Below, piece by piece: positions 16,204 through 18,235 of a stretch of DNA of 39,104 nucleotides. The notes beneath the pieces were generated by a model. It searched no databases. It was not told where the DNA came from and worked only from the letters and a program-made list of their open reading frames with translations. Each line of letters opens with the position of its first letter. Within the stretch, counting starts at the first letter, position 1. Position numbers and translations under genes: made by a program. Source of the stretch: Patescibacteria group bacterium (GTDB lineage Bacteria > Patescibacteriota > Minisyncoccia > Phycocordibacterales > Phycocordibacteraceae); the NCBI GenBank assembly GCA_018970465.1, contig JAGWWI010000006.1, positions 1 through 39,104 of the forward strand, read 5' to 3'.

Positions 16204-16290
16204 TGGTGCGCCGGGTTGGATTCGAACCAACGTAGGGCGATGCCCGACAGATTTACAGTCTGTTGCGATTGACCACTCCGCCACCGACGC
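16204..16290 (-). tRNA. tRNA-Tyr (anticodon GTA), CCA encoded
   Basis: Acceptor GCGTCGG/CCGGCGC (one T-G wobble), anticodon stem-loop ACAGA-CTGTAAA-TCTGT, long variable arm GGGC-ATC-GCCC, T-arm GTTGG-TTCGAAT-CCAAC, discriminator A, CCA. Confidence 0.97.
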
Positions 16291-16918
16291 GCTTGTTCGT
16301 CAAGTCCTGGCGGTACTCCCCTATCCAGGCGAGTATCTGCGCCAGCAACTTCTTATCACTATAGCATATATGCACCAAGCCGTTAGTCATGCGCGGCCCC
16401 CGAGGGCCGGGCGCTGCCGCCTTCTTTATGTACGGCTTTATAAACTGCTCTTTTGGTATTTGCAGCAACTTGCTCCAATAGGTCGTCAGCATAGCCGGAT
16501 CCTGTCCTTCATAGCAGTAGATATGGCCCCTAACACGCGTTTCGTCGACTCGACAAATCTCAGAAAGAAATCTTCGGAATATAAGCGCAATCTCAGGGTC
16601 GGAATTGGCGAAGTCGACAGTATGCGTCCCAGCCTTGTACCCCTCTGCCCAGTAGAGCATAACCGCCGCTAGCTTCAATCGTTCCTCCTTTGGCGTTTGC
16701 CGATTTTTAATGCGATAAGACAGAGGCTTCGCGTCAAAGCGGATCCGGCTGTTCTCAGATGCCGAACGTCGCGCTATATCATGCTTGCGTAAGGCGTAGT
16801 AGACCGCATCTTTCTTCACCTCGAATGCTTCGGCCACTTGTCGAGCGCTCTTCCCAGTTTTATAGAGATGGATCGCCCTCAGCTGATCTTTATCTGACAA
16901 TGCTGCCACAAATGGCAT
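16253..16918 (-). CDS. HTH protein with LAGLIDADG-like C-terminal half (putative homing-endonuclease relative); ORF runs into tRNA-Tyr
   Basis: N-terminal HTH TGKSARQVAEAFEVKKDAVYYALRKHDI; then LKLAAVMLYWAEGYKAGTHTVDFANSDPEIALIFRRFLSEI; stop TAA lies in the tRNA anticodon loop. Confidence 0.6.
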   Translation of the reverse strand: MPFVAALSDKDQLRAIHLYKTGKSARQVAEAFEVKKDAVYYALRKHDIARRSASENSRIRFDAKPLSYRIKNRQTPKEERLKLAAVMLYWAEGYKAGTHTVDFANSDPEIALIFRRFLSEICRVDETRVRGHIYCYEGQDPAMLTTYWSKLLQIPKEQFIKPYIKKAAAPGPRGPRMTNGLVHICYSDKKLLAQILAWIGEYRQDLTNKRVGGGVVNRNRL

Positions 16919-16978
16919 ACAGCAATTATGCTGCGCTTACCTCAGAGAAGTCAATCTGAACTATCCACGGAGAGTCTC

Positions 16979-18235
16979 CTATTTGAGTTTCAAAATCAAT
17001 ACGTCTCTCTTGCCCTTGCGGATGAGGGCATGGCCGCCCGAGAGGTCGCCGGGGTAGAGCTTCTGGTCTGGGTCGGTGATGGGGAGGCCCGAGAGGGTGA
17101 TGCCCTTCCCCTCGATCAAGCGGCGGGCGTCCGACTTCGAGGAGGCGAGGCCGCCCGCAACGAGGGCTTCGGCGAGCGAGTAGCCGGCCTCAAGCTCGCT
17201 TTTACCGAGCATGAGCGAGGGCGCCTCGGCGAGGGCGACTGCGCGCGCCTCGGCCGAGAGCTCTTCGAACGGCGTGTCGCCGTAGAGGGCGTCGGTCGCC
17301 GCCGCGGCTTGCGCCGCGGCTGCAGGCCCGTGAACGAGCTCGGTGACCTGGCTCGCCAAGACCTCCTGCGCCTCGCGCTCCTGCGGAGCCGCCCGGTGGC
17401 GGAGCATGAGGGCCTCGATTTCGCCGAGGGAGAGGAAGGTATACATCTTCAAATATTTCTCGAGGCCGTCGTCCGGGAGCCGGAGCCAGAATTGGTAGAA
17501 CGCGAAGGGCGACGTCTTCTTCGGGTCGAGCCAGACGGCATTCCCCTCGCTCTTGCCGAACTTCTTGCCGACTGCGTCAGTGACGATGGGCACCGTGAGC
17601 GCGAAGGTTTCCTGCCCCGCCTTGCGCCGGATGAGCTCGACGCCCGAGAGGATGTTCGTCCACTGGTCGGAGCCGCCGATCTGGAGGTCGACGCCGCGCT
17701 CCTGGTGGAGGACGTAATAGTCGTAGCCCTGGAGGAGGCTGTAGGCGAACTCGGTGTAGCTGATGGACTCGTCCGGCGTCTCGAGGCGGCGGCGGATCAC
17801 GTCGCGCTTCACGAGCTCGTTCACCGTGAAGTGCTTGCCGATGTCGCGGAGGAAGTCGACGAGCTTCTCCTTGAGGAGCCAGTCCGCGTTGTTGACCATC
17901 TCGAACTTCTGCTCGCTCCCGAGGATCGTGCGGAGCTGTTTCTCGAGGGTGCGGACATTCTTCTCGATGGTCTCCACGTCGAGGAGGGGGCGCTCCCCCG
18001 CCTCCTTCGGGTCGCCGATCATGCCGGTGCCGCCGCCCACTAAGAAGACGAGCTTGTGCCCGGCCCTGCCAAGCCGCTTCATGAGAAGGACGGAGACGAG
18101 ATTCCCGGCGTGAGCCGAGTCGGCCGAGGGGTCGATGCCCCAATAGACCGTCCGCTCTCCCCCAAGGATCTTCTCGGCAGGCGCCGAGCTCTGCTCGATA
18201 AGCCCGCGGGCCGCTAACTCTTCAGCAAGGGTCAT
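16979..18235 (-). CDS. tyrS: Tyrosyl-tRNA synthetase
   Basis: VYWGIDPSADSAHAGNLVSVLLMKRL, QIGGSDQWTNILSGVELIRR, KFGKSEGNAVWLD, C-terminal S4-like domain. Confidence 0.97.
   Translation of the reverse strand: MTLAEELAARGLIEQSSAPAEKILGGERTVYWGIDPSADSAHAGNLVSVLLMKRLGRAGHKLVFLVGGGTGMIGDPKEAGERPLLDVETIEKNVRTLEKQLRTILGSEQKFEMVNNADWLLKEKLVDFLRDIGKHFTVNELVKRDVIRRRLETPDESISYTEFAYSLLQGYDYYVLHQERGVDLQIGGSDQWTNILSGVELIRRKAGQETFALTVPIVTDAVGKKFGKSEGNAVWLDPKKTSPFAFYQFWLRLPDDGLEKYLKMYTFLSLGEIEALMLRHRAAPQEREAQEVLASQVTELVHGPAAAAQAAAATDALYGDTPFEELSAEARAVALAEAPSLMLGKSELEAGYSLAEALVAGGLASSKSDARRLIEGKGITLSGLPITDPDQKLYPGDLSGGHALIRKGKRDVLILKLK

Follow-up and report, generated by a model that had tools for sequence, protein, structure and literature searches.

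Within the window, the 39,104-nucleotide stretch of a Patescibacteria genome analysed here, an open reading frame (ORF) on the minus strand runs into the gene for tRNA-Tyr(GTA) and ends inside its anticodon loop, which raises the question of what kind of gene this is and whether its borrowed stop codon matters. The source genome measures 0.8 Mb in 37 contigs, and its named relatives are Kaiserbacteria and other Patescibacteria. The features involved are the following:

16979..18235, minus strand: tyrS; in empty sites the tRNA start lies mostly about 32-65 nt past the tyrS stop.
16925..16954, minus strand: promoter-like TTGACT-18-CATAAT, 6 nt before the ORF ATG, which would serve ORF and tRNA; weak, as the shuffled expectation is also about 1.
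16253..16918, minus strand: ORF of 221 aa starting with ATG, predicted free-standing homing endonuclease (helix-turn-helix plus a single LAGLIDADG-like motif).
16784..16894, minus strand: N-terminal helix-turn-helix (HTH), residues 9-45 (helices 9-20, 25-31 and 36-45); Pfam HTH_23, E 1.6e-4, under the Pfam curated cut-off.
16634..16660, minus strand: LAGLIDADG-like motif MLYWAEGYK, residues 87-95; E92-G93 is invariant in 101 homologues.
16358..16363, minus strand: TATAGT within the ORF, a possible internal -10 box for the tRNA (pattern only).
16204..16290, minus strand: tRNA-Tyr(GTA), by ARAGORN and Rfam.
16256..16291, minus strand: last 12 codons of the ORF (RVGGGVVNRNRL), supplied by the 5' part of tRNA-Tyr.
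16247..16263, minus strand: anticodon arm ACAGA CTGTAAA TCTGT, the putative homing target; the common stem is kept in the window genome.
16253..16255, minus strand: TAA stop of the ORF, U35 A36 A37 of the tRNA-Tyr anticodon loop.

The first-pass annotation had described an ORF running into tRNA-Tyr(GTA), a stop in the anticodon loop, a tRNA-encoded C-terminus and DNA poorer in G+C than its surroundings, and all of this is confirmed. On the minus strand the anticodon GTA occupies 16256-16254 and the TAA stop 16255-16253; the protein ends in ...NKRVGGGVVNRNRL, its last 12 residues being tRNA sequence. The interval given earlier began at 16204 by taking in the rest of the tRNA; the ORF proper spans 16253-16918. 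G+C content is 51.6% in the ORF DNA upstream of the tRNA, against 65.4% in tyrS and 65.0% in the window. Ahead of the tRNA-coded tail, the window ORF carries a four-residue insertion (LTNK) that the 20 other sequences in the clade alignment lack. The tRNA is the sole tRNA-Tyr found in the genome by BLAST. No intron is seen at the locus, Rfam matching only the tRNA between 15900 and 18400; the ORF does not lie inside a self-splicing intron, as an intron-encoded homing endonuclease gene would. A tblastn search for phage relatives gives no match to the protein.

The ORF is quite probably a free-standing homing endonuclease gene from a Patescibacteria-wide family in which each clade would be specific for the gene of one isoacceptor, cutting intact anticodon arms and spreading by co-conversion; recoding of the stem, or an intron, would shield the resident tRNAs. 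This reading is drawn from comparative sequence analysis, and it is set out below with its rivals.

The first-pass annotation proposed an N-terminal HTH and a LAGLIDADG-like segment. For the HTH, the structure model of the window protein (mean pLDDT 92) places confident helices in residues 9-45, and the HTH_23 match falls short of the curated cut-off. For the LAGLIDADG likeness, helix 76-92 of the model ends at the invariant E92-G93, giving LYWAEG the helix ending in an acidic residue and glycine that is typical of the motif; strands and helices alternate thereafter, and by our reading the order of elements would fit a LAGLIDADG core into which one helix and one strand have been inserted. A profile of the C-terminal domain (99 sequences), searched against the whole PDB set, has a sole match at E<=10, namely I-DmoI at a weak E of 0.014-0.018; only 46 profile positions align, and they place window E92 (LYWAEG) on I-DmoI E117 (LYVAEG), which we take to be a catalytic residue. 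On the other side, no LAGLIDADG Pfam model matches the window protein, none stands among the 25 Pfam families most matched by 101 members, and Foldseek searches of PDB and viral sets with the whole model or the C-domain, both confident, return nothing below E 1e-3. The absence of curated models lowers the case for membership in a named LAGLIDADG family, not for LAGLIDADG-like working.

Mobility is indicated by the tRNA-Tyr loci of relatives. Typically, tyrS is followed by a short spacer with a TATAGT or TATACT box and then by tRNA-Tyr; a homing endonuclease gene, if present, lies in between. Among 87 tRNA-Tyr loci, 11 carry this gene, 4 another homing endonuclease gene (one of them a remnant) and 72 neither, which makes 72 of the 83 loci scored empty; phylum-wide conservation at this position, an outcome contrary to insertion of a mobile gene, is not what is found. 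Ten carriers lie scattered on the TyrS tree, needing nine changes, no fewer than random. Distances between the endonucleases are uncorrelated with those between the TyrS proteins (rho 0.11 and -0.03), and the endonucleases are the more similar of the two in 16 of 45 pairs. The counts alone leave gain and loss undistinguished; these 16 pairs favour transfer. Decayed or broken family copies are frequent. Empty alleles and a spread that does not follow hosts, the marks of intronless homing, are both present, and the earlier proposal, that a mobile gene of homing type was inserted where the tRNA gene begins, is borne out in kind. Two loci are odd in other ways: at L004 (G014) the tyrS beside the endonuclease gene apparently contains a premature stop, some 1.1 kb ahead of the tRNA, from a frameshift or an assembly error, and at L075 (G045) a 313-aa ORF with the look of an IS30-type transposase lies about 190-1120 nt upstream of tRNA-Tyr, with no tyrS nearby.

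The family's other branches adjoin other tRNAs in the same manner. A survey of 106 genomes of the same bacterial family finds a homologue at E<=1e-5 in 59; 99 loci were fetched, the window included, and since L014 and L205 stop at a contig end, 97 are assessable. Each of the 97 adjoins the 5' edge of a tRNA gene; 84 are in line with the tRNA, 6 are divergent, and for the remaining 7 the tRNA is interrupted within its anticodon loop. The in-line members end between -38 and +93 nt from the first base of the same-strand tRNA, and their share (84/97) compares with a chance expectation of about 0.4% for an in-line tRNA neighbour; the divergent ones are all 5' of tRNA-Val(TAC). The place of all 97 beside a tRNA gene, their presumed target, together with the lack of an intron at the window locus, fits a free-standing homing gene, which lies outside any intron or intein. 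Homologues sharing the C-terminus with no tRNA nearby did not appear. Seven apparent members without a tRNA (L015, L020, L028, L148, L158, L179, L190) were rejected as such, their split tRNAs having been missed by ARAGORN. Phylum-wide, homologues occur in 79 of 287 genomes, and at 28 of 30 loci the gene is in line with a tRNA. At L258, one of the other two, a group I intron (Rfam 81.1 bits) interrupts the adjoining tRNA, which by eye is probably tRNA-His. The second, L237 (G367), stands tail to tail with tRNA-Ile, at the 3' end of that tRNA, and is the one clear departure from the 5' placement.

On a tree of 101 proteins (a quick one, some groups having just 80-90% support), 18 tRNA identities form 18 clades; the 17 changes needed are the minimum, against a shuffled mean of 73. 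In the sequences compared, each protein clade goes with the gene of a single tRNA isoacceptor. The tRNA-Tyr clade alone covers Kaiser-, Moran-, Nomura- and Campbellbacteria.

A second family shares the niche. Its members combine an HTH with two clear LAGLIDADG_3 motifs (Pfam E 2e-17), and its profile matches 2dch, a putative homing endonuclease, at E 5.7e-11. They are in line with a tRNA in 26 of 29 cases, at the 5' edge of tRNA-Tyr (L132, L133, L135) and elsewhere of tRNA-Ser and tRNA-Gln. Profile comparison between this family and that of the window is modest with the HTH (E 7e-5, prob 62) and weak without it (prob 11). The occurrence of LAGLIDADG_3 proteins at the same tRNA edge gives indirect support to the nuclease reading of the window family. 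HTH plus LAGLIDADG_3 genes at the tRNA-Tyr 5' edge are recorded as L206-L209 (G058, G086, G082, G095) and, N-terminally incomplete, L210 (G048). The window genome itself holds three more genes of these kinds: one of the window family at tRNA-Val(GAC) (L002, G000:C21), and two of LAGLIDADG_3 type at tRNA-Ser(GCT) and tRNA-Ser(GGA) (L223, G000:C9; L230, G000:C34).

These observations also bear on whether the protein might be a domesticated, WhiA-like HTH protein with a nuclease-dead LAGLIDADG domain, regulating the adjacent tRNA with one paralogue per tRNA. Such a regulator would suit the HTH domain, the one clade per isoacceptor and the fixed position on the promoter side of the tRNA; it is nevertheless unlikely, given that the gene is absent at the same tRNA in most relatives, that decayed copies exist and that the spread does not follow hosts. 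Moreover, nuclease-dead relatives usually lose the acidic residue, whereas E92 is invariant here, and the same niche is occupied by LAGLIDADG_3 proteins that are evidently endonucleases.

Carriers and empty relatives tend to differ in the anticodon arm. The common anticodon stem occurs in 1 of 11 carriers against 45 of 72 empty loci for tRNA-Tyr (p 0.0019), and in 6 of 15 against 46 of 54 for tRNA-Gly (p 0.00097); BLAST, used to collect the tRNAs, overlooks those that are strongly recoded, and the Gly count sets aside 7 uncertain loci, all with the common stem, any of which would weaken the result if counted as a carrier. In recoded stems both strands change together and pairing is kept. By tRNA region, the carrier shift is strongest in the anticodon stem and weaker in the D arm and variable loop, with no significant effect in the acceptor and T stems. 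Once phylogeny is controlled, the Tyr stem association keeps its direction (about 5.6 vs 0.8 pairs) and is not significant (median p 0.125). The window tRNA-Tyr has the common stem ACAGA and is identical to an empty-site tRNA over 85 bases; it therefore lacks the proposed stem protection, and the window enzyme is either inactive, or recent, or its target is protected otherwise.

Where these marks lie matters for the idea that a transposition- or integrase-like reaction, and not homing, places the element directly at the 5' edge of tRNAs. The gene is indeed flush with the tRNA, and its HTH resembles those of transposases and resolvases. However, the marks are densest in the anticodon arm and not at the edge where the gene is inserted, and the pattern of one clade to one tRNA is strict. 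No recombinase or transposase catalytic domain was found, matches being confined to the HTH region, and the protein lacks the integrase or transposase domain that characterises tRNA-targeted integrative elements. Nor was a target duplication or flanking repeat seen at the Tyr sites when the left flanks of the 11 carriers were inspected by eye. Direct insertion is on these grounds quite improbable.

The anticodon arm is also where some of the adjoining tRNAs are interrupted. The seven split loci read as a tRNA 5' half, an insert in the anticodon loop and a 3' half; five are tRNA-Thr(GGT) with the gene in line and two are tRNA-fMet with the gene divergent. The tRNA-fMet inserts are group I introns by Rfam (L190 at 71.8 bits; L179 at 43.1 bits, under the cut-off of 50). 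The Thr(GGT) insert, roughly 180-260 nt long and placed between nt 36 and 37 (L015, L020, L028, L148, L158, L365-L373; in L028 the contig ends within it), is not recognised by Rfam; its placement, and the fact that both tRNA halves are intact, are the grounds for calling it an intron. At tRNA-Thr(GGT) the gene stands beside 5 of the 14 copies whose anticodon loop is split and beside none of the 29 uninterrupted copies (p 0.002), a result that backs the anticodon arm as the target independently of stem recoding; the 14 were picked from the matches listed and from the homing endonuclease loci and are not a full census. About half of the split genes have no adjacent homing endonuclease gene. The intron points, 33/34 in fMet and 36/37 in Thr, flank the centre of the anticodon arm. 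In default mode, ARAGORN misses the group I introns in anticodon loops (L179 and L190 in tRNA-fMet; L258 probably in tRNA-His); since such split tRNAs escape it, tRNA counts in these genomes are too low.

Some LAGLIDADG proteins are maturases, and with some members adjoining tRNAs split by a group I intron, the protein could be imagined as a maturase-like RNA-binding protein that helps to process or splice the adjoining tRNA. That role is scarcely probable, as 90 of the 97 members adjoin tRNAs that ARAGORN finds intact and the same tRNA exists in empty relatives without the gene.

The stop codons remain to be explained. Only 32 of the 84 in-line members overlap the tRNA, and 49 stop 0-30 nt ahead of it; within the tRNA-Tyr clade itself, two members stop 6-8 nt ahead. 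A UAG at nt 8-10 of the tRNA (U8-A9-G10) serves as the stop in 16 members. Any tRNA-Tyr supplies UAA at 35-37 in the frame concerned, one of three. Because only a minority of the in-line members overlap the tRNA and the stops vary, the borrowed anticodon-loop stop is incidental, merely the first in-frame stop that the ORF meets. The same figures led to the rejection of the anticodon-loop stop as a conserved device. A single reading frame common to all tRNAs was likewise rejected, since stops at nt 8-10, 13-15, 20-23, 33-35 and 36-38 imply different frames. In L046, L052, L053 and L054, family ORFs read through the entire tRNA gene and stop just beyond. Gene callers append tRNA-coded tails to family proteins.

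The first-pass annotation had also suggested that making protein and tRNA from one transcript would compete, with RNase P cleavage removing the end of the ORF, and that this could act as a feedback. As a mechanism this is not borne out, with 32 of 84 overlapping, 49 stopping short and few reading through. A shared transcript cut by RNase P is plausible, and in the window protein and tRNA production may be coupled, because the cut would remove the ORF stop; coupling is not a family property. In Gly(GCC) carriers (e.g. L161, L177, L174), a TATA-like box falls in the last ORF codons, some 10 nt ahead of the tRNA, so that these codons look as though they also provided the -10 box of the tRNA. That an unrelated ORF merely reads through into the tRNA, without significance, has practically no probability: any tRNA-Tyr does yield UAA at 35-37 in one frame of three, but all 97 of 97 members adjoin a tRNA edge, where chance would put about 0.4% in line with a tRNA, and the homologues already refute it.

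The free-standing homing endonuclease reading implies a sequence of events. The single-motif LAGLIDADG protein would act as a homodimer and recognise the roughly palindromic anticodon-arm DNA of intact tRNA genes entering by DNA uptake or recombination. The cut is predicted to fall in the anticodon arm because a homodimer is expected, the arm is an inverted repeat and the intron points flank its centre. Repair from the allele bearing the endonuclease gene would copy this gene and the adjoining tRNA 5' half. The outcome would be intronless homing with co-conversion, of which flush insertion, patchiness and horizontal spread are observed. The resident tRNA would escape through paired stem recoding or an anticodon-loop intron; the associations are observed, and a causal role is what we infer. 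As the endonuclease gene separates an essential tRNA from its native promoter, it probably supplies the promoter from which the tRNA is now transcribed, an arrangement that would discourage loss of the gene.

A wider proposal could go either way: a phylum-wide guild of free-standing endonucleases, which two different LAGLIDADG families have joined, may have specialised on the anticodon arms of a large part of the tRNA genes, with a separate clade for each isoacceptor, and its repeated homing and co-conversion may drive stem recoding and the spread of anticodon-loop introns in Patescibacteria. If true, cellular tRNA genes would be a standing niche for homing endonucleases in one of the largest bacterial groups, and the odd anticodon stems and anticodon-loop introns of Patescibacteria genomes would be explained. 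Target specificity could be read from the protein tree, so that a whole set of natural enzymes whose targets can be predicted would be at hand. Intronless and collaborative homing, described mainly from phages in the sources cited below, would gain a cellular setting.

Among known systems, I-DmoI, a two-domain, intron-encoded archaeal enzyme, is the only PDB relative by C-domain profile, with LYVAEG and E117 aligned to E92. One intron-encoded enzyme, of PD-(D/E)XK type, targets the anticodon region of a tRNA gene, the presumed target here too, whereas the gene described here is not intron-encoded. The rRNA-intron enzymes of the CPR share with it the Patescibacteria host and the single LAGLIDADG domain; I-ShaI, a single-domain LAGLIDADG_1 protein for which a homodimer is shown, lies within a group I intron in 23S rRNA (PMC11270868). 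The main text of that paper mentions neither tRNA nor HTH, and no description of tRNA-edge homing genes in Patescibacteria was found in the open-access literature.

Collaborative homing, between free-standing endonucleases and ORF-less group I introns, is described for phage genes (PMC3984707; PMC10448857). The likeness is that a free-standing gene adjoins a gene whose presumed target is split by an ORF-less intron; here, by contrast, the genes concerned are tRNA-fMet, a tRNA read as His and tRNA-Thr(GGT) (with its Rfam-negative insert), and most members have no intron. Intronless homing is known from the free-standing endonucleases SegF, SegG and MobE of phage T4, and from SegB in the T4 tRNA cluster (PMC2988022). 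Under the proposed mechanism, the features shared with T4 would be a free-standing endonuclease gene beside its target, co-converted neighbours and embedded promoters that make loss costly; SegB sits between tRNA genes (PMC2988022). The T4 enzymes are phage GIY-YIG or HNH proteins, and SegB targets a tRNA intergenic region, whereas the present ones are LAGLIDADG-type, reside in cellular genomes, form a clade per isoacceptor and lie flush with tRNA 5' ends. Judged from the genes compared, the system would be intronless homing, with signs of collaborative homing, moved to cellular tRNA genes and specialised by isoacceptor.
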